50,891 bases of DNA from Bacteroides sp. (lineage in GTDB: Bacteria; Bacteroidota; Bacteroidia; Bacteroidales; Muribaculaceae): positions 1-50,891 of the forward strand of contig JAAVDF010000039.1 in NCBI GenBank assembly GCA_014801945.1, in the 5' to 3' direction. Positions 13,186-43,457 of this stretch are shown here, one piece after another. Made by a program: the position numbers and the translations under genes. The first letter of the stretch is position 1, and every line of letters starts with the position of its first letter. The notes beneath the pieces were generated by a model. It worked only from the letters and a program-made list of their open reading frames with translations. It did no database searches and was not told where the DNA came from.

Positions 13186-13228
13186 ACGAGAGACACCATC
13201 CCGCTCACACTTCACAGAAAACTCAAAT

Positions 13229-13266
13229 AAGGGGGGCATTTATTTACAATTGCCCCCCTTTCTCTC
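13229..13266 (+). terminator. Rho-independent terminator
   Basis: Stem AAGGGGGGCA / TGCCCCCCTT (13229-13238 with 13251-13260), tail TCTCTCT. It ends the monocistronic transcript above. Bases 13267-13482 contain no recognisable TAnnTTTG promoter for the following operon. Confidence 0.85.
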
Positions 13267-13482
13267 TAAAAAACAATCCGCGCGCAGAGCGCGACCCTAT
13301 ATTATAGACATTAAGCTGTCTTCTCCTTGGCAGCATCCAGATATCCATAAATTTTTCATATCATCTTTTCTTAATCAAAAAAAGCATTCACCCGTCACCG
13401 CTACGGTAGAAACTGCCTACAAAAAAATATTAAAAACACACATTTCAATAACCAGTCAGTAAAATCAAGTTTAACCGACTCC

Positions 13483-22316: not shown

Positions 22317-23801
22317 TCACGCTTCAGCTACTTTCTTTTCCGGCTCATTTCCCTTACTGATGAACTGGACAAGGAGAAATCCTATGAAGAATATGAGGAG
22401 CGTGCTTATGACTATACTCAGATTTATATGTACAAACGGCGATATGCCCCACCAGTCGGTGAGTTTGGTCTGGAGTGCGATAAGGATCAGTGCAGCCACA
22501 CCGATGATCACACCGGGCACCACATGATGCTTCTTCGCATCCGGACAGAGATAGGCAAGAAGGAACATGCCGAGCACACCGCCTGAACAGATGCTGCTGA
22601 GTGCCCACCAAGCATCAAGCGCATTATCGACAAGCATGAAGCACAAAGCGACACCGATACCGAGAACACCGACAGCCACACTCGCAAGGCGGAGGACCGT
22701 CACTTTACGGTCATCGCTTGCATTAGGGAATAAATGAGTATAGAAGTCGGTAAGGATGATGGTACCTGAAGATGTGACGCTCGTGGCAACCGTGCTCATG
22801 CCCGCGCAGAAGATCGAAGCGATAAGCAGGCCGACAAGTCCTACAGGCAATTCATTGATAATAAAGTAGGGAAACACATAGTCACTCTTTATCCCCTCCG
22901 GAAGTGCACCGGGGTGAACCTTATAGAACGCGAAAAGACATGAACCGATAAGGAACAGGATGAGATTGACGGGAAGTGTCAGCAGCGAACCCCAGAAGGC
23001 ACTCTTGCGGGCCTCACTGAGCGAGGGAGCGGCGCAGTAACGCTGGGTGTAGCTCTGGTCAATGGCGAAATTGTTGAGATTGGTGAACATACCGTAGATA
23101 AGGCATACCCAGAATGTACTCTCGACAAGAGAATCACCGAAACTTCCGAGCGAGAATTTATTATTCTCCATACAGATTTTCAGAGCCTGTCCCGGTCCTT
23201 CAGGCATTCCCTTGAACAGCATGACAAGACAGATAAGCGCACCGACAATCAGGATTGCACCCTGAAGTGCCTCAGTCCATATCACTGATTTCAGACCACC
23301 CTTCTGACTGTACAGGATGATACCCAGACCTGTAAAAGTAACAACAACCGGAATACTCCAGCCCATCAGCACATTCATCGGCACTGCAAGGAGGAAAAGT
23401 ATGGCACCCGAACGGCATACCTGAGTGAAAAGATAGAACACGGATGCATAGAGACGTGCCCAACGTCCGAAACGTTTTTCAAAAAAACTGTAGGCACTGA
23501 TACTGCCGAGCGAACGGTAAAACGGTACAAAGTAACGCATGGCAAGCAGGCCGGCCGGAAGGATGGAGAGCGTAAAGACAAACGCGTTCCAGTTACCCAT
23601 GAAGGCAGACGAGCAATAACCGAGAAAAGAAATGGAGCTACAGAACGAAGCAAAAATTGAGAGTCCGACAACCCAGCCGGGCACTTTGCCGCCGCCGCGT
23701 GTGAACTCATCACTGCTCTGTTTCTTGCGGCCAAACAGATAGCCGAACAAAATCGTACCCACCGTAAAGATAAGGAAAACGATAAGGTCTATTATATTCA
23801 T
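22317..23801 (-). CDS. Sodium:solute symporter (SSS family)
   Basis: A 494-aa inner-membrane transporter with about 13 hydrophobic helices, starting MNIIDLIVFLIFTVGTILFG. SSS marks: GGGKVPGWVVGLSIFASFCS near 36-55 (quoted at the limit) and the YTQRY motif in helix 6-7. Solutes of the family include sugars, sialic acid, amino acids and vitamins; specificity is not visible. It follows a DHDPS/NAL-family lyase gene by 128 bp on the same strand without an intervening terminator, so transporter and lyase probably act on the same compound or its product. Confidence 0.88.
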   Translation of the reverse strand: MNIIDLIVFLIFTVGTILFGYLFGRKKQSSDEFTRGGGKVPGWVVGLSIFASFCSSISFLGYCSSAFMGNWNAFVFTLSILPAGLLAMRYFVPFYRSLGSISAYSFFEKRFGRWARLYASVFYLFTQVCRSGAILFLLAVPMNVLMGWSIPVVVTFTGLGIILYSQKGGLKSVIWTEALQGAILIVGALICLVMLFKGMPEGPGQALKICMENNKFSLGSFGDSLVESTFWVCLIYGMFTNLNNFAIDQSYTQRYCAAPSLSEARKSAFWGSLLTLPVNLILFLIGSCLFAFYKVHPGALPEGIKSDYVFPYFIINELPVGLVGLLIASIFCAGMSTVATSVTSSGTIILTDFYTHLFPNASDDRKVTVLRLASVAVGVLGIGVALCFMLVDNALDAWWALSSICSGGVLGMFLLAYLCPDAKKHHVVPGVIIGVAALILIALQTKLTDWWGISPFVHINLSIVISTLLIFFIGFLLVQFISKGNEPEKKVAEA

Positions 23802-23929: not shown

Positions 23930-24868
23930 TCAGAGTATGATCTTGCCGTTTTCGATGGGCAGACGGTCAAGAGCCTCCTGAATCTTACGACGTTCGGGTT
24001 CGTTGAACTTATGGAAGGGAGCTGCAACGAAATCATCCTTGATTACACCGAGGAGCGAGCAAGCGCACTTCAGACCTTTCAGGTAGCTTGAGCCGTGCTT
24101 ACCGACGCTGTAGATCGACGTGCTGATCTGCATGATGATCTGCTGCAGACGCCACACTTCCTCTACGTTGCGATCCTTGGCGGCATTATACATGGCCACA
24201 TAGAGTTCGGGGAACATATTTGCACCACCGTTGATACCACCGTTAGCACCGAGGAGCACACATTCGCCTGTAACTTCCTCCGGACCCATGAGAAGCGCGA
24301 AATCAGGACGATCCTTCATAGTGTACATCACAGACTGGAAGTAAGGAATATTTGCTGAACTGTCCTTGAAACCGATCACCTTCTCATTTTCGGCAATGCG
24401 ATGGATAGTAGCCGGCGAGAAATTGACCTTCACGTGGCTCGGCATGTTGTAAAGGAACAGCGGGAGGGGCAGATGGGGAAGCATATCCTCATAGAACTCA
24501 GCAAGTTCAGGCTGACCGGTTGCGAAATAATAGGGAGCTGCGCTCACGACAGCAGATGCACAGCAGTCGGCAGCTACTTTCGAGAGATTTATACTCTCGA
24601 CAAGCGAAGTATCGGTGATGCAGACAAGCACCGGCAGACGTCCGGCGTTGATGCGGCATGTCTCCTTGATCATTTCCTTGCGCAGACGGTAGCTGAGGCT
24701 CTGCTCCTCACCGGTCGTACCGAGAATAAAGAGACCGTGGACACCACCGGCAATAAGATGTTCGATAAGATTTTCAAGGCTGGCCACATCAAGTGTGTCA
24801 TTGCCCAGAAGCGGGGTAACCAGAGGGGGAATAATTCCGCTCAGTGGCGATTTAAAGGTTGAAGTCAT
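23930..24868 (-). CDS. DHDPS / N-acetylneuraminate lyase superfamily aldolase
   Basis: A 312-aa class I aldolase-fold enzyme that cleaves or forms 2-oxo acids through a Schiff base. Catalytic Lys168 (VIGFKDSS), Tyr140 (FLYNMP) and the carboxylate-binding loop GTTGEE (50-55) are visible. True dapA is unlikely given the context. An upstream ATG at 24928 would lie beyond a good promoter at 24903-24934, so the 24868 start (MTSTFKSP) is chosen. Candidates: N-acetylneuraminate lyase, 2-keto-3-deoxy-sugar-acid aldolase, or hydroxy-oxoglutarate aldolase. The pairing with an SSS transporter and the nearby deoxysugar genes favour a sugar-acid aldolase. Confidence 0.8.
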   Translation of the reverse strand: MTSTFKSPLSGIIPPLVTPLLGNDTLDVASLENLIEHLIAGGVHGLFILGTTGEEQSLSYRLRKEMIKETCRINAGRLPVLVCITDTSLVESINLSKVAADCCASAVVSAAPYYFATGQPELAEFYEDMLPHLPLPLFLYNMPSHVKVNFSPATIHRIAENEKVIGFKDSSANIPYFQSVMYTMKDRPDFALLMGPEEVTGECVLLGANGGINGGANMFPELYVAMYNAAKDRNVEEVWRLQQIIMQISTSIYSVGKHGSSYLKGLKCACSLLGVIKDDFVAAPFHKFNEPERRKIQEALDRLPIENGKIIL

Positions 24869-24902
24869 AATGTTCTGAATAGTAATTTGAGCTATATGCT
24901 TG

Positions 24903-24934
24903 CAAAAGTAACAAATTCCCGCGGGCAATACAAG
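24903..24934 (-). promoter_or_regulatory. Promoter of the lyase-transporter operon
   Basis: Minus strand: CTTG (24934-24931), 20 bases, TACTTTTG (24910-24903). Start expected near 24896, leader about 28 nt. Bases 24935-25110 contain nothing else recognisable. Confidence 0.65.
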
Positions 24935-25234: not shown

Positions 25235-26839
25235 TCAATGTCCGTTGAAGAAGATGTAGAGACTGATCATGACTATGGCGAGAGCAAGCCAAGCAAGCTG
25301 CACGCTGACTGACATCTTGCTCTTGATGACATTCATGGACGCACGCTCTTCCGAAGCCTTATCCATAAGACTTATGGCAACCATGCTTATAATGAGAACC
25401 ACGAAGATCAGGAACGAGAGCATCATAAAGTGAACATGGTCAGTCGCGTTCGGTATAATCCACAGATACAGGACACCGCATCCGATACTGAAAATCGTGC
25501 CGAAGGTCAGGACGATATTGGCCGCAAGTGTGGTGCAACGCTTCCAGAACACACCTACCACGAAAACGGCAGCCATAGGGGGAGCGATGAAGCTCAACAC
25601 TGACTGGAACACGTTGAAAAGATCCATGCCCTTGATGTTATCGACGGCAATCGTAATCAGGATCGACACGAGAGCACCGACAATGGTCACTATATGACCG
25701 GTCCTTATGATTTCCTGCGGAGTAGCATCCTTACGGATATTCTTCACATATATATCCATAGTGAACACCGTGCTGAGAGCATTGAGGGCCGAACCGATCG
25801 TGCTTATGAGAGCCGCCGTAAGGACTGCGATCACAAGTCCGACCATACCTGTGGGGAACAGACTGGAGACAAGTGTCATATAGGCCTGATCCGGCTCGAT
25901 AAGTGCATCCCCGAAGAAACCTTTCTTCCAAAGGGCGAAGCAGACAACGCCGGGAATGATATAGATAGCCACATCGAGGATCTTGAGCCATCCGGTGAAA
26001 TTAGCACCCTTCTGTCCCTCATTAAGATTACGGGCGGCAAGCACAGGCTGCACCATCGACTGGTCCGTACACCAGAACCAAAGGCCCGAAATCGGATAAC
26101 CGAGGAGAATCGGAAGCCAAGGGAATTCCTTATGGTCGTTAGGCTGGAACAGATTCCAGTAATGCGACGGAACTACATCGGGATTGGCAAGGGTGTTGAT
26201 ACCTCCGACTACAGAATGATCGCCAAGATGCCAGATACCGACAATGGTCAGCGTGGCCGAAACAAGTATAAGCAGTACCATCTGATAGACATTGGTATAG
26301 GCGATGGCCCTGAGTCCGCCAAGAATGGTGAAGAACGCCGAGATTGCAAGCAGGATGAACGCTGAAAGCCACATCGGGATACCAAAGACCTGACGGACGA
26401 TGATTCCGCCTGCAAAAAGCGTAAGCGCAAGCCATGAGATGAGCACGGTCACAATCGTGTACCACGCAAGCATGTTGCGTGTCGATTCACCGAAACGCTT
26501 TCCCATAAACTCCGGCAGAGTGGTGATCTTCTCACCGAGATAGCGCGGAGCGAAAACAAAGGCAAGCAAGGCGATGAACACGAAGGCATACCAAGCATAG
26601 TTGCCCGACACGATACCGGCGGCAAAACCGGCACTCGCCGAGGCAATGAGCATTGAAGGGCCCACATTGGTTCCCCACATTGAGAAACCGATGTGATGCC
26701 ATTTAAGCGAATTGCTCGCAAGAAATTTGTGAGAACCTTTCTTTGTCTTGGAGCTGGCCCATAGACCGATGCCGAGAAGGATCACAAAGTAAGCGATCAG
26801 GACAATCCAGTCCGTAGGTCGCATTGAAAGATCATTCAT
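25235..26839 (-). CDS. SSS-family sodium/sugar symporter (SGLT-like)
   Basis: A 534-aa inner-membrane transporter with about 14 helices. The N-terminus (WIVLIAYFVILLGIGLWASS), the GFSMWGTNVGPSMLIA stretch and FVFAPRYLGEKITTLPEFMG identify the sodium/glucose-cotransporter branch of SSS. ATG codons at 26839 and 26824 are both possible. It is the last gene of the leftward operon, 53 bp after the methyltransferase fusion, and so is the likely uptake route for that operon's substrate, perhaps a (methylated) sugar or small glycoside. Confidence 0.88.
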   Translation of the reverse strand: MNDLSMRPTDWIVLIAYFVILLGIGLWASSKTKKGSHKFLASNSLKWHHIGFSMWGTNVGPSMLIASASAGFAAGIVSGNYAWYAFVFIALLAFVFAPRYLGEKITTLPEFMGKRFGESTRNMLAWYTIVTVLISWLALTLFAGGIIVRQVFGIPMWLSAFILLAISAFFTILGGLRAIAYTNVYQMVLLILVSATLTIVGIWHLGDHSVVGGINTLANPDVVPSHYWNLFQPNDHKEFPWLPILLGYPISGLWFWCTDQSMVQPVLAARNLNEGQKGANFTGWLKILDVAIYIIPGVVCFALWKKGFFGDALIEPDQAYMTLVSSLFPTGMVGLVIAVLTAALISTIGSALNALSTVFTMDIYVKNIRKDATPQEIIRTGHIVTIVGALVSILITIAVDNIKGMDLFNVFQSVLSFIAPPMAAVFVVGVFWKRCTTLAANIVLTFGTIFSIGCGVLYLWIIPNATDHVHFMMLSFLIFVVLIISMVAISLMDKASEERASMNVIKSKMSVSVQLAWLALAIVMISLYIFFNGH

Positions 26840-26892: not shown

Positions 26893-29800
26893 TCATTCCG
26901 AAGCACCGACCAGACGGCGGGCGAGAGCCACAGCCGTGTTGGCGTTGTCGCTGTAACCGTCAGCACCGATCTCATCGGCAAAATGCTGGCTTACAGGCGC
27001 ACCACCGACCATCACTTTCACCTTGTCGCGCAGACCGGCGGCTTCGAGAGCTTCGATCACGTCCTTCATGTAGGTCATGGTTGTGGTGAGCAGCGCACTC
27101 ATGCAGAGAATATCGGCATCTGACTTACGCACCTCCTCAACAAAGGTCTCGGCAGGGACATCAATACCTATATTTATCACATCGAAGCCACAGCCTTCGA
27201 GCATGGAAGCGACAAGATTTTTACCTATGTCGTGGAGGTCACCCTTCACTGTACCGATGACTACCTTACCGAGCGTAGTGGCCGCACCTCCGGTAAGCAT
27301 CGGTTTGAGTAGTTCAAGCGCGGCCTTCATGGCACGTCCGGCCATCAGAAGCTGGGGCACAAACGCCTTGCCGTCCTGAAAACGTTGGCCGACCTCGGCC
27401 ATGGCACGTATCATCTGACCGTTGATTATCTCCTGCGGTGCTACTCCGCGATCGACAAAGCGGCGGGTAGCTTCAGCCGCATCAGCAGCCTTTCCGGCCA
27501 CAATAGCATCAAATACGCCATTGTCATCCACAATTTCCTCCTCGGCCGGTTTTACCAGAGGCGGACAGCAATCACATTCCACTCCGTGAATCTGCGGAAC
27601 AACTTTGCGGAACGGTGCACGGACTGCATCACCGTCCGAGCTTTCATCAGCCACAGGAGCGGTCTCCATTATTGCCGAACCGACTCCGGGACGGTGAGGC
27701 GACAGCCACAGGCCGCTGACAGGTTCGACAATCTGCGCAAGTTTCCGTATATGTGCATCGGTAGTGCCGCAGCAACCGCCGATGATATTGACAACATGTC
27801 CGTCGAGAAGAGGCCACACGGCTTTCTGAAACATTTCGGGCGAAAGCGAATAACTTCCGTCATCAGCAGGAAGGCCGGCATTGGGATAGGCCGAGATACA
27901 GTAATCAGTCTCAGCACCCAGATTGACAAGCAGCGGAGTAAGTTCACGGATGTCTGTGAAGCAGTTGATACCTACCGACAGTACCGGATAGTCCCCGACA
28001 CCGGCGATAAATTCCGCTATGGACTGTCCGAGCATATTGTGACCGTCAGGTGTCTTGACCGAGAAGCTGAGCATGATGGGGAGTTGCTTACCGGCCTTGA
28101 CCATTGCAGCAGTAGCCGCCTTGATTGCAGCCTCGGCATTCTTCACGTCAAAAATAGTCTCGATAAGCAGGATATCGACACCGCCCTCTATCAGAGCCGC
28201 TACCTGTTCCTCGTATGCTTCCATGAGGGTAGTGTAATTGAATGTACCCCACCCCGGCTGAAGACTTTCAGACGAGAGAGAACAAGTCTTGCTTGTCGGG
28301 CCGACCGAACCGGCCACGAAACGCGGTTTCGACGGATCTTTACGCGTATATTCATCGGCAAGCTCACGCGCTATGCGGCACGCGGCAAGATTGATTTCCT
28401 TGACAGAACCTTCAAGACGGAAATCGGTCATTGATATGCGCTGGGCATTAAAAGTGTCGGTGCTGATAATGTCAGCTCCGGCCTCAAGATACTTACGGTG
28501 GATCTCACGGACCACATCCGGACGCGTGATAGCGAGAAGATCGTTATTGCCACGCAGGGCTGTGTCATGATTCTTGAAACGGTCACCACGGAAATCCTCT
28601 TCTGAAAGACGGTAAGTCTGAATCATGGTTCCCATAGCACCGTCGAGCACGAGCACCCTGCGCTCAATAGCCTTGAAGAGTGGTGATTCGCGGTCGAGTG
28701 TCAACTTGACAGGCTCTGCTGCCGCAACGGCAGCCACAGCTTCACTCTCGACCTTTTCAATAATGCGTGCGACTTCCGCATCCGCATCAAATTCCTCGTC
28801 CTTAACATCGGCTGTCTTTATGGTGATCACATCACTCTCCTCACGAGGCTTCGCGGGACGGTAGCGGTACTCCTCGACGATCTTCATGGCCTGTTCGACC
28901 TCATCCTCATTATGGAAATCCATTTCGAGATGCACACCGTTTCCACCGATATTGTCGAGCAGCGGTTTTAGCTCGTCAAGAGTAACCCAGCAGGCCATTA
29001 TGCTCTTGCCACCGTCAAGTATGCGGCGGTAGAGATCATACCATTTCGGTGATCCACCCTGAGGCTCACCGACTCCGGGAGTCCACTGGATGGCATTGAG
29101 CTCCTCGATTTCGAGAAGCGCGGGAAGGTGATGGAGCGCACCGACTCCATCAAGGTGATAGAGGGTGTAGTCGATCTTCTGACACTGCTGACGGATGAAC
29201 GGCTGCACGAAACGGCGGTAGTCCTCCACGCTGATCATGGTTGAGATGTCGCTCTGGAGTTTCGACATCTTTCCGGGAGCCCATGAGGAGAAGTAGCAGA
29301 AAGCCATCTCATCACCCTCACGGATTATGTCGTAAAGTTCATCATAGACCTTGAAATATATATCATTGATCTGCTGCATCTGGCGTTCAAGCACTTCGGG
29401 CTGCATGACGGTGTCGAGAAGCACCTTGTCAGTACCCTTAATGGCCGCAAGCACATCAAGACCCTCCATGAGGTCGGGCATACCGACATAGTAATGTCCC
29501 TGCGCCTTGGCCTTGCATGCCCTCAGCAGCTCCTTGTGGAGAAGCCAGTTGGGATGATTCTCATCAAACTTGATTTCATCCGTGTAATTCGGATCGGGGT
29601 GAATCCATATCGTATCCGGCCCACCCTCAAACACACCGCCGAGTATGGCAGCGAGCGAGCCCGGACCAAGCTGGGTGTTCGCAACCGGGAGCATGTCAGC
29701 TTTCAACGAACTGTGAGCCACGTACCAGTCCAGATAGTCAGCTCGCCACTTAGGATCGAACCACTTCTGATTAAGATCAACAGGTGCAGCCGGAGCCGGG

Positions 29801-29931
29801 ATATCGGCGTGAGGTTTCACTCCGTCCTGAAAGTGTTCCCACATATTGAGGACGATACCTTTGTGGTTCCACCAATCCATGTAGTGACGTTTGGTCTCTT
29901 CAAGATTTTCCTTCCAAGTATTCATTTTCAT
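26893..29931 (-). CDS. Fusion: UroD-type methyltransferase + homocysteine methyltransferase (MetH module 1) + corrinoid-binding domain (MetH module 3)
   Basis: A 1012-aa cytoplasmic protein. The frame is open from 29985, but the GH31 gene ends at 29939, so ATG 29931 (or 29925) is chosen. Residues about 5-360 form a uroporphyrinogen-decarboxylase-type barrel of the 'trimethylamine corrinoid protein 2' kind; the usual zinc H-x-C is H-L-D (259-261). An acidic/Ala-rich linker (365-415) follows. Residues 425-735 are a MetH homocysteine domain: LDGAMGTMIQ (429-438), zinc Cys657 in GINC, Cys720/721 in GGCCGT. A linker has ECDCCPP (785-791). The cobalamin cap (about 805-880) and Rossmann domain follow with D898-x-H900-xx-G903 (DLHDIG), His900 being the cobalt ligand. 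The folate-binding and activation modules of MetH are missing. Predicted to pass a methyl group from an unknown donor through cobalamin to homocysteine. Confidence 0.88.
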   Translation of the reverse strand: MKMNTWKENLEETKRHYMDWWNHKGIVLNMWEHFQDGVKPHADIPAPAAPVDLNQKWFDPKWRADYLDWYVAHSSLKADMLPVANTQLGPGSLAAILGGVFEGGPDTIWIHPDPNYTDEIKFDENHPNWLLHKELLRACKAKAQGHYYVGMPDLMEGLDVLAAIKGTDKVLLDTVMQPEVLERQMQQINDIYFKVYDELYDIIREGDEMAFCYFSSWAPGKMSKLQSDISTMISVEDYRRFVQPFIRQQCQKIDYTLYHLDGVGALHHLPALLEIEELNAIQWTPGVGEPQGGSPKWYDLYRRILDGGKSIMACWVTLDELKPLLDNIGGNGVHLEMDFHNEDEVEQAMKIVEEYRYRPAKPREESDVITIKTADVKDEEFDADAEVARIIEKVESEAVAAVAAAEPVKLTLDRESPLFKAIERRVLVLDGAMGTMIQTYRLSEEDFRGDRFKNHDTALRGNNDLLAITRPDVVREIHRKYLEAGADIISTDTFNAQRISMTDFRLEGSVKEINLAACRIARELADEYTRKDPSKPRFVAGSVGPTSKTCSLSSESLQPGWGTFNYTTLMEAYEEQVAALIEGGVDILLIETIFDVKNAEAAIKAATAAMVKAGKQLPIMLSFSVKTPDGHNMLGQSIAEFIAGVGDYPVLSVGINCFTDIRELTPLLVNLGAETDYCISAYPNAGLPADDGSYSLSPEMFQKAVWPLLDGHVVNIIGGCCGTTDAHIRKLAQIVEPVSGLWLSPHRPGVGSAIMETAPVADESSDGDAVRAPFRKVVPQIHGVECDCCPPLVKPAEEEIVDDNGVFDAIVAGKAADAAEATRRFVDRGVAPQEIINGQMIRAMAEVGQRFQDGKAFVPQLLMAGRAMKAALELLKPMLTGGAATTLGKVVIGTVKGDLHDIGKNLVASMLEGCGFDVINIGIDVPAETFVEEVRKSDADILCMSALLTTTMTYMKDVIEALEAAGLRDKVKVMVGGAPVSQHFADEIGADGYSDNANTAVALARRLVGASE

Positions 29932-29938
29932 GGGAAAA

Positions 29939-32203
29939 TTAGTCGTTAAACAATTTTTCGTTCCAGATGCCTTTGAAATCGTCATCGACCGTTATCGTAA
30001 CTGTCTTGGAAAGATCCATCTGGTCTGTGCAGTCAACCGCTTCGGGGTAGAACGGGATTTGTGCGCCGTATTTCACATAGACAGGCATATCCTCAAGGGG
30101 CACTTCAACATCTTTGAGCCAGCGCGCACCGTCAAGCACCTCTCCGGTAAAGAAGTTGACCCACTTCCCTTCGGGGAGATAGATGTCACGGCGGTTCTCA
30201 GAGTTCATTACAGGACATACGAGGAAGTTTTCGCCGAAATAATACTGATCATCAATATGAAGCACAGTCTTATCCGCCGGATTCTGGAAGACCATAGCCT
30301 GAACGAGTGTCGATCCGCTGACAGTGGCCCGCTCGCTCTCGGCATATATATAAGGTATGAGGGCATAGCGGAGTTTCCACCATTTCTTGACGATCGTAGC
30401 GATCGCAGGATAATGCCACGGCTCACGCTTACCTGTGCCGTGATAACGGATATGAGATGAGAATACTCCGAACTGCGTCCAGCGTACATAGACATCGTCG
30501 CGCACGACTGAATTCATGAAGTTGGGCAACGTGTGGAAACCCGGCACGTCGTGACTCCAGAACGCGAAACCTGAAAGGCCGAAATGCAGACCGCCTTTCA
30601 GCGAACCGGCCATGCCATCCCACGAGCTGCATGAGTCACCACCCCAATGCAAGGGGTAACGCTGACATCCGGCCCATGCCGCACGTGCCCATACGATACC
30701 GTCGCCGGTCACGTCCTTGGTAATCTCGTAGGCGGCTTTCTGGTAGAGTAGCGCATAGAGATTGTTGAGGAGTTCCGGTTTCATGCCCTTGTAGAGCGCA
30801 TCCATGTGAATATTTTCACCGAAATCGGTCTTGATGCACACAACTCCCATGTCAAGCAGATCCTTCAGAAGACCCTTGTACCACTCGGTGGCGGCAGGAT
30901 AGGTGAAGTCGATAGTTCCGGCATAGTCAAGAGCCGAGAAGTTTGAGCCTTCCGAAGCCTGTTCCTTGGTCAGAGGTGCTATGTACTCGTTCTCACGAGC
31001 CTCATCAATCTGCTCGGCATCCTTCGCCACATACGGAAGCTGCCAGAGCGACACACGGAAACCTTTATCCTTCAATCCCCGGATGAAACCTTCGGGATCG
31101 GGGAAACGCTCAGGATTGAATTTCCATTCGCAGAGCCAGTCGGTGCGGAACCATCCGGTGTCGAGATGAATGACGTCACAAGGATAGTGCTCATCGCGCA
31201 GGCGGTCACAGATTCCATTGACCTCATCGGCACTGAAGTATGTCATACGGCTCATCCATACACCGAAACTCCACAGAGGAGGCATGGTCGGGTAGCCGGT
31301 CAGATCGCGGTAGCCACGAATGATCTCCTCGACAGTGTCACCACCGATAACAAACGCATCGACCAGAGCCTGATCGCTCATGAACTGTACGGAACGGGTG
31401 GAGTGGCCGGCAAGCGAGAGTTTGCAGTGTGAGGTAGTGTGATAGAATGTACCGTACATGCGGCTCGACACATAAAACGGAATGTTCTTATAGGTGCGGC
31501 AGTTATTGACACCCTGTCCGTCCTGATTTTTAAGGAAGAAGGTGCGTCCGCTCAGGTCCATTTTCGCAAAACGTTCGCCCGTACCGCCGAAACATTCGTC
31601 CGGCTTGCATTCGAACGACAGTGTGGCGCGCTCCTTCTCACCGTCAAGCTTACAGTAAGCCACCGGCAGAGCATCGTAACGGGGAGGTGAAAAATGGTCG
31701 TAGGCTGCAAGACGGATCTCGCGCTTGCCGTCGGGGAAAAGACGGAGGTCAAGTGTCTCCTGCGGATCAGGCAGAAGGTCGCTCCAGCGATCCAAGAGCG
31801 GTTCGCGGAGGTTGATGACAGCACGACGCACACCGTCGGCCTCAGTCGAGATGATCCACTCGCCGTCAGCAAATTCTGCCTTGAGCGGCATTTTGCCCAC
31901 TCGGTCGCTGAGCATGAGCATTTCCGACTCATCGGTCATTGAGAGTTCGCCGAAGCCCATGAAAATGCGGGTGATCTTAGGTCCGTACTGACGGAGAATG
32001 AGAGTATGGTTTTCACGAGGAGCCGATTCATCTGCCGCCATATCGTTGGCAAGCATCTGCTTCTGGAAAGGTACCGTTATGTGAATATCGCCATCCACAC
32101 ACTCGACAGCCGTCGGTGAACAGGCTTTCCACAGCGACTCGTCGCGCTTCAAGTCTATATCGAAATCAAGAAAATCGAATAAATGATAATTTGTTGGTTT
32201 CAT
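29939..32203 (-). CDS. GH31 alpha-glycosidase, probably cytoplasmic alpha-xylosidase-like
   Basis: A 754-aa retaining alpha-glycosidase. Beta-sandwich N-terminus (about 1-290), catalytic barrel (300-620) and C-terminal beta domains. Nucleophile Asp460 in CIKTDFGENI and probable acid/base Asp523 in HWGGDSCSSW. The KTDFGE form is the one seen in YicI-type alpha-xylosidases. No signal peptide is present, so it acts on an imported oligosaccharide. It ends 8 bp before the methyltransferase fusion and is preceded by a secreted beta-helix protein, all on one strand. An alpha-glucosidase or alpha-galactosidase specificity cannot be excluded. Confidence 0.9.
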   Translation of the reverse strand: MKPTNYHLFDFLDFDIDLKRDESLWKACSPTAVECVDGDIHITVPFQKQMLANDMAADESAPRENHTLILRQYGPKITRIFMGFGELSMTDESEMLMLSDRVGKMPLKAEFADGEWIISTEADGVRRAVINLREPLLDRWSDLLPDPQETLDLRLFPDGKREIRLAAYDHFSPPRYDALPVAYCKLDGEKERATLSFECKPDECFGGTGERFAKMDLSGRTFFLKNQDGQGVNNCRTYKNIPFYVSSRMYGTFYHTTSHCKLSLAGHSTRSVQFMSDQALVDAFVIGGDTVEEIIRGYRDLTGYPTMPPLWSFGVWMSRMTYFSADEVNGICDRLRDEHYPCDVIHLDTGWFRTDWLCEWKFNPERFPDPEGFIRGLKDKGFRVSLWQLPYVAKDAEQIDEARENEYIAPLTKEQASEGSNFSALDYAGTIDFTYPAATEWYKGLLKDLLDMGVVCIKTDFGENIHMDALYKGMKPELLNNLYALLYQKAAYEITKDVTGDGIVWARAAWAGCQRYPLHWGGDSCSSWDGMAGSLKGGLHFGLSGFAFWSHDVPGFHTLPNFMNSVVRDDVYVRWTQFGVFSSHIRYHGTGKREPWHYPAIATIVKKWWKLRYALIPYIYAESERATVSGSTLVQAMVFQNPADKTVLHIDDQYYFGENFLVCPVMNSENRRDIYLPEGKWVNFFTGEVLDGARWLKDVEVPLEDMPVYVKYGAQIPFYPEAVDCTDQMDLSKTVTITVDDDFKGIWNEKLFND

Positions 32204-32275: not shown

Positions 32276-34108
32276 TTATTTCTTAGGGAGATTGAGATTC
32301 AGTTTCACATCCGGGCCGTTGTCACCGACGATGAGCTTCGGACCGGGACGGTTATAGCCGAATTCGGGATCGGGACACTGGTTGCCGGTGACGGTATAAC
32401 CATCCGTAGCCTCATCGAAATAGATGTAGAACGCACGGTTGTTGGTGGCATAAGGTGCATCGATCAGATTGTCGATACGGTTACCTGTGATCACTGATCC
32501 GGGCTGATTGGAAAGCGTATAGATACCGCCCGCGTCATAGAGCTGTCCGGCAAAGTGATGGACATGGTTACCCGTGATACGGTTGTTGCACATACCGCTT
32601 TCAAGAGGAGTCCACCCCCACCCTACACATATACCTGAGTAATTGAGATCCGAGACCTCGTTATCGGCAATCTCCACGTCGCGCACGTAGCCTGCACCGA
32701 TACCCACGCAACCCCAGTCCTCGTTGGTGGCATTGCGGATCACATTGGATTTCACCGTGATGTCACGGCATATATCGCTACCGACAGCGGGAATATAAGG
32801 AACATGAGTCTCAAAACCGCCGTCGGGGAAAGTGCCCATCTGAATGGCCGTGCCGCCTATGTCCTCAAAAAGACATCCTTCAACTTTTGAATTGCTCACG
32901 GCAGTAATATAGTCAAGCCCTGTGGCTCCCAAATGACGGAAGTTGCAGTCAGTGAAATCTATCCCGTCGGCATGGCACACGGTCACGGCTGCTTCCGGAC
33001 GCGCTATCCATGCCTGATTTTCAAGTTCGGCTTTCTCAGGCAGGCCGGGGATCTGTAGTTTATAGGCATCAAGCAGACGGAAACCACCCTGAAGGGTGAC
33101 ATGTCCCTCACGCGACGGCCGAAGCCATGAGGCATGTTCAAACCCAACGTTCTCAAAACGGATGTTGCTAACCGGTCGTTCGCGGCTACCATCGACAGTG
33201 ACAAGTGTCTCAAGGAGTGGTATCACCACCTCGCGGTCATTCATGTCGGTTTCCGATTCGGGATAATAGTAGATACGGCCCGAAGGATAATCCTGATACC
33301 ATTCTCCCGGCTCATCGAGGAGTTCAAGCGCATTGGCAAAGAAGTATGACGAGTTGCCGCGCTCACCGTCAATCACCGGCTGCGGCCACGGATGATCAAA
33401 CTCAAGTTTGCTTTCGGGATCATGGAACGAAACGATCACATTACCCTTGCCGTCCTCACGGATATCCTTCACGCGGAGTATGGCTATAGCCCAACGCTGA
33501 TGAACGAACATTTCGAGTTGACCGGCTTTCGAAAGATCTGTTTTGGGATCTGGTACGGTGATCGTGCGGTCCGAAGTATTGAAATCGACCATGCGCTCCA
33601 TCACTCCCGGAGCGAATTGCGAGGCTCGTTGAGCTTTCGCACCATCCACATAGAGCTGACGAGTCTCCACCAAACGGTTGCCATCGAGGGGAGCATCCGC
33701 CACCCATATCTTGTCGCGCAGTTCGGGTGAGATTCGCGGGTCATCGCAACCACGTGTCCAGCCTTTGACCTCGACACCTCCGCTGATGACAGCATCCGTC
33801 CCTTCGGGCGCACATATAATTGTAGCCGACGTTTCCGTACCGCTGTCCTCCGGGCGCAGGAAAAGAGGCGAAGTCTGCCTGTAGATTCCGCCGTCGAGGA
33901 TAATGCGTATATCCTCCGAAGCTTCCGGAGCTTTCAACCTGCGCCATTCGCGGGCACGCTTCAAAGCTTCTCCGACCGTCTGCAACGGATGCCCGATACT
34001 GCCGTCGGCCTTGTCATTGCCTCCGGTAGCCGATACATATATGTTTCCTGAATTTGAAGTGATGCCCGATGCAATTATCATGGCGGCAAGCACTGCTACA
34101 ACTCTCAT
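32276..34108 (-). CDS. Secreted right-handed beta-helix protein, GH141-like (candidate alpha-L-fucosidase)
   Basis: 610 aa. Signal peptide (about 1-20), then a parallel beta-helix: NIYVSATGGNDKADGSIGHP at the start, beta-sandwich insertion with VISGGVEVKGWTRG, and repeated helix rungs with Asn/Gly turns (e.g. FTDCNFRHLGATGLDY, VKSNVIRNATNEDWG, ITGNHVHHFAGQLYDAGGIY). This architecture matches GH141 (alpha-L-fucosidase/xylanase) and related polysaccharide-acting helices; the family assignment is by pattern and not certain. First gene of the leftward operon. A fucosidase role would fit the fucose genes on the facing operon. Confidence 0.72.
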   Translation of the reverse strand: MRVVAVLAAMIIASGITSNSGNIYVSATGGNDKADGSIGHPLQTVGEALKRAREWRRLKAPEASEDIRIILDGGIYRQTSPLFLRPEDSGTETSATIICAPEGTDAVISGGVEVKGWTRGCDDPRISPELRDKIWVADAPLDGNRLVETRQLYVDGAKAQRASQFAPGVMERMVDFNTSDRTITVPDPKTDLSKAGQLEMFVHQRWAIAILRVKDIREDGKGNVIVSFHDPESKLEFDHPWPQPVIDGERGNSSYFFANALELLDEPGEWYQDYPSGRIYYYPESETDMNDREVVIPLLETLVTVDGSRERPVSNIRFENVGFEHASWLRPSREGHVTLQGGFRLLDAYKLQIPGLPEKAELENQAWIARPEAAVTVCHADGIDFTDCNFRHLGATGLDYITAVSNSKVEGCLFEDIGGTAIQMGTFPDGGFETHVPYIPAVGSDICRDITVKSNVIRNATNEDWGCVGIGAGYVRDVEIADNEVSDLNYSGICVGWGWTPLESGMCNNRITGNHVHHFAGQLYDAGGIYTLSNQPGSVITGNRIDNLIDAPYATNNRAFYIYFDEATDGYTVTGNQCPDPEFGYNRPGPKLIVGDNGPDVKLNLNLPKK

Positions 34109-34315: not shown

Positions 34316-35320
34316 ATGAAAATTAATATGACCCGGTGGATGCGTGACATAATTGCACGCAAAGATGTGACGGCCATCCCTGTAATGACCCATCCGGGAA
34401 TAGAGATAATCGGTGAGACTGTCCTCAAAGCTGTGAGCGACGGTGATATCCACCACAAAGCCATTATGGCTCTTGCCGAAAAATATCCGACGGCCGCTGC
34501 AACCGTCATCATGGATCTCACTGTCGAGGCTGAGGCTTTCGGAGCTGAGATCTCATTTCCGGAGAATGAAGTGCCTGCAGTGATCGGTCATCTGCTCAAC
34601 ACGCCTGATGACATAGACCGTCTGGAAGTTCCCTCGCTCAAAGCCGGTCGCGTCCCTCAATATCTCAAGGCAAACCTTCTCGCCGCACGATCCATCACTG
34701 ACCGTCCGGTGCTCGGAGGCTGTATCGGTCCATTCTCGCTTGCCGGTCGTCTCTACGACATGTCGGAGATCATGATCCTCATCTATCAGGATCCCGAAGC
34801 GGCTCACAAGCTACTCGAAAAATGCACGGAATACATCCTCCGTTACTGCAAGGCTCTGAAAGAGACAGGTGTCAACGGCGTGGTCATGGCTGAACCGGCC
34901 GCAGGACTCATGTCCGACGAGGATTGCCGCCGTTTCTCTTCCGATTATGTGAAGAGAATTGTAGATGCCGTTCAGGATGACTATTTCACCGTCGTGCTCC
35001 ACAACTGCGGCAACACCGGTCACTGCACCGGAGCTATGGCTGCTACAGGATCGGCTGCATACCACTTCGGAAATAAGTGTGACATGGCCGAGGTGATACG
35101 CGACATACCTGCTGACGCTCTCGCAATGGGCAATCTCGATCCGGTGTCAGTGTTCAAGGACGCTACACCCGATCAGATGAAGGAAGCCACACGCGATCTG
35201 CTCGAACGCATGAGCGGTCATCCCAACTTCGTTCTTTCAAGCGGTTGCGACACTCCGCCCCACACTCCGGCTGCCAACATCGACGCATTCTTTGAAACAC
35301 TCAAGGAGTTCAACGGATGA
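34316..35320 (+). CDS. MtaA/CmuA-family zinc methyltransferase (UroD fold)
   Basis: A 334-aa cobamide methyltransferase of the uroporphyrinogen-decarboxylase superfamily. Unlike the UroD part of the fusion, it keeps the zinc triad: His229-x-Cys231 in VLHNCGNT and Cys311 in SSGCDTPPHTP. Characterised relatives (MtaA, MtbA, CmuA) move methyl groups between corrinoid proteins and thiols or take them from a substrate. Genuine HemE is excluded by these ligands. The stop overlaps the next start by 4 bp (ATGA), coupling it to the reactivation protein. With the facing fusion gene it probably serves the same corrinoid domain. Confidence 0.87.
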   Translation: MKINMTRWMRDIIARKDVTAIPVMTHPGIEIIGETVLKAVSDGDIHHKAIMALAEKYPTAAATVIMDLTVEAEAFGAEISFPENEVPAVIGHLLNTPDDIDRLEVPSLKAGRVPQYLKANLLAARSITDRPVLGGCIGPFSLAGRLYDMSEIMILIYQDPEAAHKLLEKCTEYILRYCKALKETGVNGVVMAEPAAGLMSDEDCRRFSSDYVKRIVDAVQDDYFTVVLHNCGNTGHCTGAMAATGSAAYHFGNKCDMAEVIRDIPADALAMGNLDPVSVFKDATPDQMKEATRDLLERMSGHPNFVLSSGCDTPPHTPAANIDAFFETLKEFNG

Positions 35321-36009
35321 TCAGTAAGGAGCTGACTTTCGATGAGCTCGGAATCGCGCCGGAGGATATCTACGAGCAGATGGGCTACGGCAAGGCTGTT
35401 CCTGACGATATGACTGTCGGCGAGACCATGAGCATGCTCGACCAGATACGTCCGATGCTCCGCCCGCGTTTCTGCGTATTCATTACCGACGGATCTCTTG
35501 ACATTGATTCGAAGATCCTTTCGGCTATGGGACGTGACTTTTCGATCGGACGCATAATCTCCCGTCAGCTCCGGGGCTCGCAACGCTACGCATTCTTTGT
35601 CGCAACGGCCGGAATGGAATTCGAACGGTTGCAACACGATCTCATGGCCGATGGTGACATGGTGAAAGTTTTCATCGCCGACGCCATAGGAAGCGTGATA
35701 GCCGAAAAAACTGCCGACCGAATGGAGGAAGCACTGCAGGAGCTTCTCGATAAGGCCGGATGGCATCACACCAACCGTTTCAGTCCCGGTTACTGCGGAT
35801 GGCATGTCTCGGAACAGCAGCAGCTCTTCCGACTCTTTCCGGAAGAAGAACCCTGCGGGGTCAGACTATCCCCTTCCAGTCTCATGACCCCGATAAAATC
35901 AGTCAGCGGTGTCATCGGTCTTGGAGAGAATGTCAGGAAGCTCGAATATTCCTGCGGTCTGTGTGACTACCGTCAATGTTACAAACGTAAGATAAAACCC
36001 ACTAAATAG
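35317..36009 (+). CDS. Stand-alone MetH activation-domain-like protein (corrinoid reactivase)
   Basis: A 230-aa protein resembling MetH module 4, the domain that reductively remethylates oxidised cob(II)alamin using S-adenosylmethionine. Key stretch: [15 protein letters not shown] (154-168), equivalent to the SAM-binding R-x-x-PGY motif, followed by [18 protein letters not shown]. The C-terminus has C213-xx-C216-xxxx-C221 ([11 protein letters not shown]), a possible metal or Fe-S site as in other corrinoid reactivators. It supplies exactly the module missing from the fusion protein in the divergent operon. Translationally coupled to the zinc methyltransferase. Confidence 0.82.
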
Positions 36010-36065: not shown

Positions 36066-37844
36066 ATGAACACTTATCCCAAAATCGGTATCCGTCCGGT
36101 AATCGACGCTCGTCAGGGTGGTATCCGCGAAAGTCTTGAAGACAAGACCATGAATCTTGCCAAAGCAGTGGCCGACCTTATAGCAGCCAACCTCCGCTAC
36201 CCCGATGGAAGCCCCGTGCAGTGCGTGATCGCTGACGGCACTATCGGCCGCGTACCTGAGACAGCAGCTTGCGCCGAGAAGTTCGAGCGCGAAGGTGTAG
36301 GCGCAACCATTACCGTCACTTCATGCTGGTGCTACGGTTCAGAGACTATGGACATGAATCCTCACTGGCCCAAGGCTGTATGGGGTTTCAACGGAACTGA
36401 GCGTCCCGGTGCGGTATATCTTGCAGCTGTTCTCGCAGCTCACGCTCAGAAAGGCCTCCCCGCATTCGGTATCTACGGACACAACGTGCAGGATCTCGAT
36501 GACAACAGCATCCCCGCTGATGTAGCTGAAAAACTTCTCCGCTTCACCCGCGCCGCCCTCGCTGTGGCACTCATGCGTGGCAAATCATACCTTTCCATCG
36601 GCTCAGTGTCAATGGGTATCGCAGGTTCTATCGTCAACCCGGATTTCTTCCAAGAATATCTCGGTATGCGCACCGAATCAGTCGATGCTACCGAAATCAT
36701 GCGCCGCATGACCCTCGGCATCTATGATCAGGAAGAATACGCTAAGGCGATGGCATGGACTGAAAAGTACTGCAAGCCCCGTGAAGGCGAGGACTTCAAG
36801 AATCGTCCCGAAAAGAAAAAGACCCGCGAGGAGAAGGAAGCTGACTGGGAATTTGTCGTTAAGATGACCCTCATCGTGCGCGACCTCCTCAAAGGTAACC
36901 CCAAACTCCGCGAAATGGGCTTCAAGGAAGAAGCTCTCGGCCACAATGCTATCGCCGGCGGTTTCCAAGGTCAGCGTCAGTGGACCGACTTCTATCCCAA
37001 CGGTGACTTTACTGAAGCCCTCCTCAACACCTCGTTCGACTGGAACGGCATCCGTGAGGCATTCGTATTCGCAACAGAAAATGACGCATGCAACGGAGTG
37101 GCAATGCTCTTCGGTCACCTCCTCACTAACCGTGCACAGTTCTTCAGCGATGTCCGCACTTACTGGAGTCCTGAAGCCGTATATCGTGTGACAGGCAAGG
37201 AACTCACCGGCCGTGCCGCAGGCGGTATGATCCACCTCATCAACTCCGGTGCAACCACACTCGACGGTACAGGCCAGTCAGTGGATGCCGAAGGTGTTCC
37301 CACCATGAAACCCCACTGGGAGATGGATGAGAAGGATGTTGAAAACTGTCTCGGTGCCACCACTTGGTATCCTGCCGACCGTGACTACTTCCGTGGCGGC
37401 GGTTTCTCATCAAACTTCCTCACCAAGGGCGGTATGCCTGTGACCATGATGCGTCTCAACCTCGTCAAAGGTCTCGGTCCGGTTCTCCAGATCGCCGAAG
37501 GCTGGACAGCCGACGTCGATCCCGAAATCAACAAGGTGCTCGACATGCGTACAGACCCCACTTGGCCCACCACTTGGTTCGTTCCCCGTCTCTGCCCCGA
37601 CCGCGACGCATTCAAGGATGTATATTCAGTGATGAACAACTGGGGTGCAAACCACGGTGCTATTTCCTATGGCCACATCGGTCAGGACCTCATCACACTC
37701 GCATCGATCCTGCGTATCCCCGTCTGCATGCACAACGTCGAAGAGGACAAGATCTTCCGTCCCGCTGCTTGGAATGCATTCGGCATGGATAAGGAAGGTT
37801 CGGACTACCGCGCATGTGCCGCTTACGGTCCTATCTACAAATAA
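36066..37844 (+). CDS. fucI: L-fucose isomerase
   Basis: A 592-aa ketol isomerase converting L-fucose to L-fuculose (also D-arabinose to D-ribulose). Start [16 protein letters not shown] and full family length. The metal/catalytic acids lie in [13 protein letters not shown]; further family marks are [29 protein letters not shown] and [20 protein letters not shown] (partial). It is 56 bp after the reactivase gene, so the methyltransferase pair and the fucose genes share an operon. No fuculokinase or fuculose-phosphate aldolase is in the window. Confidence 0.95.
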
Positions 37845-37871: not shown

Positions 37872-37961
37872 GAGGTTGTGTCAGGATTAAATTCAGAAGT
37901 TCCGGCCTACGCAAGCGCAGGTCCAGCAAAATTTAATTATTCTGACACAACCTCTTTTTTT
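37872..37961 (+). terminator. Terminator/attenuator between fucI and the mutarotase gene
   Basis: GAGGTTGTGTCAG (37872-37884) is perfectly complementary to 37942-37954 and is followed by seven T (37955-37961). The 57-nt loop contains a second nested pairing (ATTAAATT with AATTTAAT). The structure sits inside the operon and overlaps any N-terminal extension of the next gene. Confidence 0.75.
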
Positions 37962-38003
37962 CCCAACACCCAGATTATGCAAAAGAAGGAAACCGGTTAT
38001 CCT

Positions 38004-38366
38004 ATGAAGGAATATAAAGTGCCGGTGAAACGTTTCTGCCGCACTCTTGACCTGAAAGATGATCCGGAGCTCATAGCCGAGTACCGCAAACGTCATGCTG
38101 AAGAAAATTTCTGGCCTGAAATACTCGCCGGAATCAAGGAGGTGGGCATACTTGAAATGGATATCTATCTGCGCGGCACGCGCCTGATGATGATACTCGA
38201 AGTCCCGGCCGATCTTGACCTTGACGAAGCCATGACCCGTCTGGCAACACTCCCGCGCCAACAGGAATGGGAAGACTACATGTCGATATTCCAGCAGGCA
38301 GAACCCGGCGCGTCCTCTGCAGAAAAATGGCAGCCGATGGAGAGAGTGTTTCATCTCTACGACTGA
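38004..38366 (+). CDS. L-rhamnose/L-fucose mutarotase family protein (RhaM-like)
   Basis: About 120 aa, a ferredoxin-like aldose 1-epimerase that interconverts anomers of 6-deoxy sugars. The core RFCRTLDLKDDPELIAEYRK, HAEENFWPEI and MERVFHLYD matches the RhaM/DUF718 family. Upstream GTG/ATG starts at 37878 and 37977 exist, but the first lies inside a strong terminator hairpin, so 38004 (MKEYKVPVKRFC) is preferred. Its place between fucI and fucP indicates L-fucose as substrate. Confidence 0.82.
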   Translation: MKEYKVPVKRFCRTLDLKDDPELIAEYRKRHAEENFWPEILAGIKEVGILEMDIYLRGTRLMMILEVPADLDLDEAMTRLATLPRQQEWEDYMSIFQQAEPGASSAEKWQPMERVFHLYD

Positions 38367-38431: not shown

Positions 38432-39748
38432 ATGAAAGAATCTCAATCGTCCGAATCGCAGTCGCTCCTGCGATCCAACGGCATCAATTACCTCGTACCG
38501 TTTATCCTTATTACAAGTTGCTTTGCTTTGTGGGGCTTCGCCAATGACATCACCAACCCGATGGTCAAAGCTTTTTCAAAGATCTTCCGCATGAGTGTGA
38601 CCGACGGCACTCTCGTACAGGTAGCATTCTACGGCGGCTACTTCGCCATGGCTTTCCCTGCCGCTATTTTCATACGCCGCTTCTCCTACAAGGCAGGTGT
38701 CCTCCTCGGACTCGGCCTCTATGCCTGCGGAGCATTCCTCTTCTATCCGGCCATGCTTACCGGAAGCTACTATCCATTCCTCATCGCCTATTTCATACTG
38801 ACCTGCGGTCTGTCATTCCTTGAGACGAGCTGTAATCCTTACATCCTGTCAATGGGATCGGAGGCGACAGCCACCCGCCGTCTCAACATGGCCCAGTCAT
38901 TCAATCCTGTCGGATCACTGATGGGCATGTGGGTAGCAATGACTTTCATTCAGGCCAAGCTCAACCCGATGGAGACCGAGGCACGCGCACAGTTGAGCGA
39001 TGCCGAATTTGAAGCCGTGCGTGACGCCGATCTTCTCACGCTCATCACTCCTTATATCTTCATCGGACTTGTCGTATTGCTGATGTTTGTGGTGATTGCG
39101 GTGACACGAATGCCCAAGAACGGCGATCAGTCGCACTCCATCAACTTTTTCAGTACGCTTCGCCGCATCTTCTCACTGAGCCGTTACCGCGAAGGCGTGA
39201 TCGCGCAGTTCTTCTATGTAGGCGCACAGATCATGTGCTGGACATTCATCATTCAGTACGGCACACGCGTTTTCATGCTCGAAGGTCTTGATGAAAAGAG
39301 TGCGGAAGTCCTCTCGCAGAAGTACAACATAATTGCAATGGCCATCTTCTGCTGCAGCCGTTTCGTCTGCACCTATCTTCTCCGCTACATCAACGCAGGA
39401 CGTCTGCTCGCTGTGCTTGCCACTGCCGCCGCTATCCTCACAGTCGGTGTCATCATGTTCCAAGACCGCATGGGAGTCTATTGTCTCGTAGGGGTCTCTG
39501 CCTGCATGTCACTCATGTTCCCTACCATCTACGGTATCGCTCTTAACGGCCTCGGTGATGATGCCAAATTCGGTGCGGCTGGTCTGATCATGGCTATTCT
39601 CGGCGGATCCGTGCTGCCTCCGCTTCAGGCACGCATAATCGACTGCGGTACGATCGCAGACTTCCCCGCTGTCAATATCTCGTTTGTGCTCCCCCTCATC
39701 TGCTTCCTCGTGATCATAGTCTATGGAATGCGCAGAGCTAAGGAATAA
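38432..39748 (+). CDS. fucP: L-fucose:H+ symporter family permease (FucP-like MFS)
   Basis: A 438-aa major-facilitator protein with 12 hydrophobic helices. The FucP-type signature is near the N-terminus (CFALWGFANDITNPMVKAF) and GLSFLETSCNPYILSMG in helix 4-5. Imports L-fucose or a similar sugar with protons. Last gene of the rightward operon, 65 bp after the mutarotase gene, followed by a strong terminator. Glucose/galactose MFS porters of Bacteroidetes share these motifs, but the gene neighbours support fucose. Confidence 0.88.
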   Translation: MKESQSSESQSLLRSNGINYLVPFILITSCFALWGFANDITNPMVKAFSKIFRMSVTDGTLVQVAFYGGYFAMAFPAAIFIRRFSYKAGVLLGLGLYACGAFLFYPAMLTGSYYPFLIAYFILTCGLSFLETSCNPYILSMGSEATATRRLNMAQSFNPVGSLMGMWVAMTFIQAKLNPMETEARAQLSDAEFEAVRDADLLTLITPYIFIGLVVLLMFVVIAVTRMPKNGDQSHSINFFSTLRRIFSLSRYREGVIAQFFYVGAQIMCWTFIIQYGTRVFMLEGLDEKSAEVLSQKYNIIAMAIFCCSRFVCTYLLRYINAGRLLAVLATAAAILTVGVIMFQDRMGVYCLVGVSACMSLMFPTIYGIALNGLGDDAKFGAAGLIMAILGGSVLPPLQARIIDCGTIADFPAVNISFVLPLICFLVIIVYGMRRAKE

Positions 39749-41205: not shown

Positions 41206-41263
41206 TGGTAATAAGATTTTTAGATCAATTTGGATACTCTGCCCGTAAAGCCGGACATCAACA

Positions 41264-41294
41264 CAAAGTTACAAGCATTTTTCGGAATATGAAA
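41264..41294 (-). promoter_or_regulatory. Promoter of the GH63-like gene
   Basis: Minus strand: TTTC (41294-41291), 19 bases, TAACTTTG (41271-41264). Leader about 50 nt. Confidence 0.7.
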
Positions 41295-41334
41295 ACATCA
41301 GCTTGAAAGTAGTGTGACTTTTACCTCTATGATA

Positions 41335-41380
41335 AACAAAAGAAGATCATGCCAAAAGTGTTTTTCTGACATGATCTTCT
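41335..41380 (-). terminator. Terminator of the dehydrogenase operon
   Basis: AGAAGATCATG (41341-41351) pairs with CATGATCTTCT (41370-41380); on the minus strand the stem is followed by TTTGTTT. Confidence 0.75.
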
Positions 41381-41419
41381 TATATTTCAAGCTAATATGT
41401 GCAATATTAATCCGTCGGC

Positions 41420-42445: not shown

Positions 42446-42509
42446 TTTAGTTCTTTTATTTTTAATTCGTTGGATTATGCTTTAGAAATATTATACTCTG
42501 GAGAGAAGA

Positions 42510-43436: not shown

Positions 43437-43457
43437 ATATCTTATAGCTGATCTTGA

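Follow-up and report, generated by a model that had tools for sequence, protein, structure and literature searches.

A UroD-fold, homocysteine methyltransferase and corrinoid fusion protein of Bacteroidales as a candidate B12-dependent demethylase of O-methylated plant sugars

Contig JAAVDF010000039.1 of Bacteroides sp. (assembly GCA_014801945.1), placed by GTDB in the family Muribaculaceae of the Bacteroidales, carries a gene that joins three modules in a single chain. The whole stretch of DNA analysed, hereafter the window, covers positions 1 to 50,891 (50,891 nucleotides), and the fusion gene lies on its minus strand at 26893..29931. From the N terminus, and on the same strand, the product comprises a UroD-fold barrel (28867..29931), proposed to act as methyltransferase I and recognised by an AlphaFold2 model and Foldseek; a MetH-type homocysteine S-methyltransferase module with three conserved cysteines (27727..28653), recognised by Pfam, alignment, model scores and a tree; and a corrinoid module made up of a B12-binding_2 helical cap (27304..27516; Pfam) and a B12-binding domain of the MtgC/MtbC type with the motif DLHDIG (26929..27270; Pfam, alignment and model scores). 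The open frame reaches 29985 (26893-29985, 1030 aa), and position 29931, where the original prediction ended the gene, corresponds to an in-frame methionine, Met19; under a first-Met rule most aligned relatives begin at most two residues from it, which makes it the likely start. On the 1030-aa frame Pfam places S-methyl_trans at 445-753 (290 bits), B12-binding_2 at 824-894 and B12-binding at 906-1019, and its scan of the fusion protein finds no Pterin_bind, the methyl-folate module. The fusion was thus rightly described at the outset as three modules in one frame with no folate module. No signal-like N terminus is seen by eye, and an AlphaFold2 model of the 1012-residue fusion reaches a pTM (predicted template modelling score) of 0.53, too low to place the modules relative to one another. 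The linker holds a CDCC motif at about residues 800-806 of the 1030-aa frame, which is retained in a relative that is missing the homocysteine module (L031).

From its sequence alone, the UroD label of the barrel is unsafe. Pfam does not match the UroD family (PF01208) in the N-terminal part even at E<=1, giving one chance-level UPF0004 match at 0.21; sequence searches of the PDB with the barrel return no match, the mtaA_cmuA model leaves it unmatched, and profile-profile comparison (hhalign) with a neighbouring UroD protein, UroD2, yields no clear match (probability 4%). Since sequence searches are blank, the assignment to the UroD superfamily is made through Foldseek of the predicted fold. 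The AlphaFold2 model of the barrel, built from 39 aligned relatives (pTM 0.85), clearly adopts a UroD fold: PDB ranks 1-11 all belong to this superfamily, a fold-level likeness at 8-12% identity, and the top match is the methylcobalamin:coenzyme M methyltransferase 4ay8 (E 1.3e-8, probability 1.00, TM 0.62/0.65). The UroD-type barrel of the original prediction is therefore upheld by the fold and not by Pfam. A remote bridge in sequence also exists: the barrel matches proteins of L013 (E 9e-8) and L014 (E 6.5e-4), of which L014 matches PF01208, while L013, like L011, does not. When a hidden Markov model of the barrel was run against the window and the collected loci (3708 frames), the matches outside the family were L013 (9e-15), a frame of L024 (3e-6) and the PF01208 relative L014 (0.029), and UroD2 was not matched.

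The homocysteine module scores 382 bits against the metH model, and Cys657, Cys720 and Cys721 (numbered from Met19) are kept at at least 90% in a 47-sequence alignment in which 4 rows are without the module; model score and conservation bear out the MetH domain first proposed, with its presumed zinc cysteines. The DLHDIG motif is invariant in the same alignment. The original prediction had attributed the corrinoid domain to MetH as well, and of this claim the motif stands and the type does not: MtgC_2 scores 224.6 bits against 148.1 for metH, so a MetH-like B12 module was rejected, and by these scores the domain belongs with the small corrinoid proteins (MtgC/MtbC). The whole fusion reaches 522.1 bits with NCBIfam metH, below the curated cut-off of 1010.85. 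A search for a full metH elsewhere in the window genome, as had been proposed, found a complete folate-type MetH with pterin module and activation domain, and the fusion was therefore rejected as the housekeeping MetH of this organism.

The three-part architecture is recurrent. The 80 named loci are the best of 224 found, a sample that leans to close relatives; 67 of them show the three modules in one frame, 6 are two-part (UroD-B12) and 7 are truncated where the contig or locus stops, and the assembly artefact against which the original prediction had warned was rejected on these counts. Over the 87 loci examined, the figures are 69 three-part, 6 two-part, 5 with the barrel only and 7 cut. 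A draw of 399 genomes from the family of G059 (taken for Bacteroidaceae) gave the barrel in 18, classified by frame length as 6 three-part, 8 two-part and 4 alone; P. vulgatus ATCC 8482 carries the two-part cluster. One record titled Paenibacillus (L029) has a Bacteroidales cluster 68-93% identical to that of the window, and is probably a mislabelled metagenome-assembled genome.

Quick trees offer a provisional domain history. In the barrel tree (61 rows, support by the Shimodaira-Hasegawa-like approximate likelihood ratio test only, single proteins as outgroup, 24 of 58 inner branches open), the two-part rows of Phocaeicola are early branches, and 3 changes are required to explain the three-part label, of which starred branches force 1; one gain of the homocysteine module with later losses, as in L029 and L045, would fit. 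In a tree of the homocysteine module (50 rows), the 28 fusion rows (26 distinct) make up one clade with support 100, nested in a branch (support 95) whose remaining rows are MetH proteins of the same family as G059 (code f59). Because the fusion rows form one clade within this MetH branch, the module was probably captured once from MetH by a UroD-B12 protein. The 'rewired methionine synthase' of the original prediction thus probably has the direction reversed, the trees fitting a UroD-B12 methyltransferase that gained a MetH homocysteine module. Several MetH-type open frames of family f59 (L140-L145, L148 and L149) are only 913-949 aa long, as if their activation domain were a separate protein.

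The gene lies among sugar genes. Upstream on the minus strand are a GH31 alpha-xylosidase-like enzyme (29939..32203), which has no signal peptide by eye and ends 7 bases before Met19 of the fusion, and a GH141 relative of BT1002 with a signal-peptide-like N terminus, also by eye (32276..34108); a sodium:solute symporter, the proposed importer (25235..26839), follows the fusion, with a DHDPS-family aldolase (23930..24928) and a second sodium:solute symporter (22317..23801) beyond it, all three on the minus strand. The plus strand carries, divergently, UroD2 (34316..35320), a protein of the MtaA/CmuA type; a stand-alone MetH-type activation domain with RFSPGY (35317..36009), proposed to reactivate the corrinoid; L-fucose isomerase, fucI (36066..37844); a mutarotase of the rhaM family (37878..38366); and an L-fucose:H+ symporter (38432..39748). 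UroD2 scores 159 bits with the mtaA_cmuA model, under the cut-off of 235; its H229, C231 and C311 are invariant in 18 rows and align with 4ay7, and this His-x-Cys with a distal Cys presumably corresponds to the zinc residues of MtaA. At what we take to be the RxxxGY site of the MetH activation domain, R-x-SPGY is found in the window and in 9 of 10 relatives (RFSPGY in 8, RYSPGY in L022), and NYSPGY in L021. The window protein ends in a CxxC-x4-C cysteine cluster, kept in 10 aligned relatives and not in the MetH of the genome, which may bind a metal or an Fe-S cluster.

Farther out, 39826-44390 encodes a GH63-like glycosidase, a zinc dehydrogenase, an amidohydrolase and an aldo-keto reductase; the last three form a set that recurs in other loci and may represent an oxidative fucose route. 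At 13483-15981, a C10 peptidase with a Spi-inhibitor propeptide adjoins a SusCD pair with a thioredoxin-like protein.

Partners were tabulated in those 42 named loci whose flanks exceed 8 kb ahead of the gene and 6 kb behind it. Among seven partners, GH31 is present in 33, the symporter in 33, GH141 in 30, the activation domain in 29, UroD2 in 28, fucI in 6 and DHDPS in 4; in L033 a rhamnosidase stands where GH31 usually is. Co-occurrence was assessed in 295 genomes of the order of the window, with strict cut-offs (barrel E<1e-80, full GH141 E<1e-38) picked after the lists had been viewed: 8 genomes have the barrel, 10 GH141 and 7 both (Fisher p 2.6e-11, a guide only, as the genomes are related), leaving the barrel alone in G006 and GH141 alone in G133, G165 and G208. 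The 8 barrel carriers are spread over seven families. At E<=0.001 a hand count gives 12, 31 and 9, respectively. In the genus of G677 (taken for Bacteroides, with GH31 genes nearest to 5f7c), 21 of 149 genomes have this GH31, always with the barrel beside it (21 of 21); G295, of another genus, has GH31 without the barrel, but there the gene stops 171 bases short of the contig end.

The original prediction named no donor; these partners point to one. Papers are cited here by PubMed Central number. BT1002, the first GH141, is reported to free 2-O-methyl-D-xylose-a1,3-L-fucose from side chain A of rhamnogalacturonan II (RG-II) (PMC10154630). The GH141 of the window matches BT1002 with 484 bits and 40% identity; by-eye alignment shows an Asp at both presumed catalytic places, the residue numbers used being apparently off by five. 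A second GH141 of the same genome (L107/L108, G000:C23) is 72% identical to BT1002 and lies in an RG-II-like glycosidase locus with GH127, rhamnosidase-like genes, GH106 and a GH2 protein that in its front part matches 5mt2/5muj, presumably BT0996. The disaccharide 2-O-Me-Xyl-a1,3-Fuc is well matched by the combination of an alpha-xylosidase-like enzyme of putative xylose specificity, a member of an alpha-fucosidase family, fucose genes and a methyltransferase.

We therefore propose, at somewhat better than even confidence, that the fusion combines in one chain a corrinoid system that takes the methyl group from an O-methylated plant sugar, likeliest 2-O-methyl-D-xylose, or its disaccharide with L-fucose, from RG-II side chain A. 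Around the observed modules, fold and conserved cluster, we infer donor, direction, acceptor and order of steps as follows. The methyl-sugar unit would be freed by secreted GH141 and imported by the symporter; in the cytosol, the UroD-fold barrel would use the O-methyl group to methylate Co(I) of the corrinoid module, from which the homocysteine module would hand the methyl to homocysteine, yielding methionine. The stand-alone activation domain, with S-adenosylmethionine, would rescue oxidised cobalt. GH31 might cut before or after demethylation, and the freed sugar would enter xylose and fucose catabolism. Aldose-ketose isomerases would be blocked by a methyl group at O-2, so that it would have to be removed before this catabolism. 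The cleavage of a methyl ether is proposed for the fusion with its substrate read from neighbour genes only; the UroD superfamily does include the O-demethylases MtvB, OdmB, VdmB and MtoB (PMC13222342).

Homocysteine is the likely acceptor, given the MetH-type module with its cysteines, and a non-folate methyl donor is likewise likely. In line with this acceptor, the unfused cluster of L023 has its own separate homocysteine methyltransferase gene, and in two-part forms UroD2, with its MtaA-like residues, or MetH may take over the acceptance step. Three genomes of one genus (G584, G499 and G600, 99% complete each) have the fusion as their only PF02574 match, no PF01717 and a MetA (PF04204); in these, either the fusion makes the methionine, and could be the only methionine synthase, or another synthase escaped the PF02574 and PF01717 models. 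Their clusters contain GH31, symporter, UroD2 and activation domain in G584 (L166), GH31 plus GH141 in G499 (L170), where the contig is short, and fucI, two symporters, DHDPS and UroD2 in G600 (L167), with no activation domain within 20 kb. G415, of the same genus, has a MetH-sized frame. G108 and G402, which carry the barrel alone, have no PF01717 and, for PF02574, only smaller frames (783, 304 and 310 aa); three-part carriers are thus not alone in lacking a MetH. Of 16 genomes, 15 yielded a MetA, the exception being G000 (79% complete). The most far-reaching form of the proposal, that one polypeptide demethylates an ether-methylated pectin sugar through B12 and makes methionine, provides the missing step for the sole RG-II linkage reportedly uncut by B. 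thetaiotaomicron, and serves G584, G499 and G600 as sole synthase with sugar methyls replacing folate, is offered as a tentative and rather doubtful extension.

Several observations weigh against the proposed role in sugar demethylation. No catalytic motif can be recognised in the barrel, and to our knowledge no member of the family has an assayed activity. The GH141 of the window, being only 40% identical to BT1002, may differ in substrate; GH31 scores 470 bits, below the alpha-xylosidase cut-off of 606, and its nearest structure, 5f7c, is named an alpha-glucosidase. Neither GH31 nor GH141 occurs in 9 of the 42 wide loci (L033, L036, L062, L065, L067, L085, L096, L098 and L105), and L067, L096 and L098 have 0 of the 7 tabulated partners. 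Two-part relatives manage without a homocysteine module, and no homocysteine gene was seen in 4 of 5 unfused loci (L021, L022, L024 and L025), L024 covering only 6.7 kb. In L098, a Fic/DOC-family gene (13154-13936) directly follows the fusion gene.

The most serious conflict on this side comes from B. thetaiotaomicron. In one genome, with a GH31 that shares 98.5% identity with 5f7c (presumably BT_0339) across the first 205 residues, the gene order is GH141, GH31, UroD-B12, symporter, activation domain, UroD2, which matches the numbering BT_0338-0343; BT_0340 would accordingly be a two-part UroD-B12 protein. BT_0338 is described as GH141 (PMC8264420), BT_0339 as an alpha-xylosidase (PMC10434189), and BT_0340, BT_0342 and BT_0343 as methylamine corrinoid methyltransferase proteins (PMC8941943), so that the species apparently possesses a two-part version of the cluster. 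Yet it is reported to cut 21 of 22 RG-II linkages, all but that within 2-O-Me-Xyl-a1,3-Fuc, and to accumulate this disaccharide in the medium (PMC7939467). We had considered B. thetaiotaomicron as a natural knock-out lacking the cluster, and rejected this because these papers place BT_0338-0343 there. Nor are BT_0340, BT_0342 and BT_0343 among the known B12 proteins bound by a B12 probe, which according to its authors may under-sample (PMC8941943). Possible reasons include no expression or too little B12 in the conditions used, poor import, or a wrong substrate, and it is this conflict that holds our confidence where it is.

Other readings of the cluster are each less probable. The same chemistry could act on a different O-methyl sugar, such as the 2-O-methyl-L-fucose found in RG-II chain B, or on some other O-methylated glycan, with the adjoining fucose isomerase using the product directly. 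The fucI gene of the window, and its presence near the fusion in stretches showing no GH31 or GH141 (L033, L036 and L167), speak for this, as does the tracing of 2-O-methyl-L-fucose in the medium in a figure legend of PMC7939467; however, fucI occurs in only 6 of the 42 wide loci, the adjoining of GH31 and barrel in all 21 genomes of the presumed Bacteroides genus fits xylose better, and we consider this variant unlikely. We judge somewhat less probable still a methylamine, methanol or methyl-sulfur system merely parked beside sugar genes, as the 'Mta' label of the B. thetaiotaomicron proteins suggests. The MtgC/MtbC-like corrinoid module is compatible with it, as is the MtaA-like UroD2 with its presumed zinc residues, but MttB, MtbB, MtmB and MtaB families are absent from the window genes scanned, the UroD fold of the barrel is unlike the MttB kind, and glycosidases are recurrent partners across several families. 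The published label itself (PMC8941943) counts in its favour, together with the methyl-sulfur or methyl-selenide roles proposed for clusters of MtaA-like proteins (PMC10418091).

A diverged methionine synthase, its corrinoid charged by a separate folate or other methyltransferase while the UroD barrel does another job, would suit G584, G499 and G600 with their sole PF02574 protein and their MetA. It appears very improbable, since 15 of the 20 carrier genomes scanned, including that of the window, have a further MetH-sized PF02574 frame (913-1249 aa), and since the barrel is highly conserved and occurs also alone or with the B12 module only.

If demethylation of a methylated plant sugar by the fusion is true, gut and rumen Bacteroidales would be able to use, in a B12-dependent way, the methylated sugars of a highly complex plant polysaccharide, methionine would be made without folate, and B12 supply would be tied to fibre use. 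It would also account for a conserved cluster now labelled 'methylamine methyltransferase', which sits in tractable strains: P. vulgatus ATCC 8482, in two-part form, and seemingly B. thetaiotaomicron. In the titles, abstract openings and passages covered by full-text literature searches, with subscription papers mostly outside reach, neither the three-part chain nor a sugar donor turned up, and nothing linked corrinoid transfer to RG-II or methyl-sugars.

UroD barrels are already known from corrinoid methyltransferase systems, among them O-demethylases and CmuA. Of these, CmuA is not known to have a homocysteine module, and the O-demethylase systems use folate as acceptor. With UroD-superfamily corrinoid methyltransferases I in general the fusion barrel shares the UroD fold and not a PF01208 match, and its methyl transfer to the corrinoid is predicted. 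MetH is the source of comparison for the other end of the chain: the fusion has a MetH-type homocysteine module, three cysteines predicted to bind zinc and an activation domain nearby, but it is without a pterin module, its corrinoid module is of the MtgC/MtbC type, its activation domain is a separate gene (35317-36009) and its score falls below the MetH cut-off. The three-component O-demethylases MtvB, OdmB, VdmB and MtoB likewise combine a UroD-superfamily methyltransferase I, a corrinoid protein and a methyltransferase II, but as separate proteins acting on methoxylated aromatics (PMC13222342), and their likeness to the fusion barrel is one of superfamily. CmuA, which unites the UroD barrel of methyltransferase I and the corrinoid protein in one chain (PMC13222342), resembles the fusion in this respect; the fusion differs by its additional homocysteine module, a barrel that the mtaA_cmuA model does not match and a neighbourhood of sugar genes. 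Also close are BT_0340, presumably of the two-part kind by gene order in a near relative, and its P. vulgatus counterpart (L083), with the same barrel (84% for P. vulgatus) and the same cluster; they differ from the fusion as two-part UroD-B12 proteins with no homocysteine module, and BT_0340 is called a 'methylamine corrinoid methyltransferase' in print.

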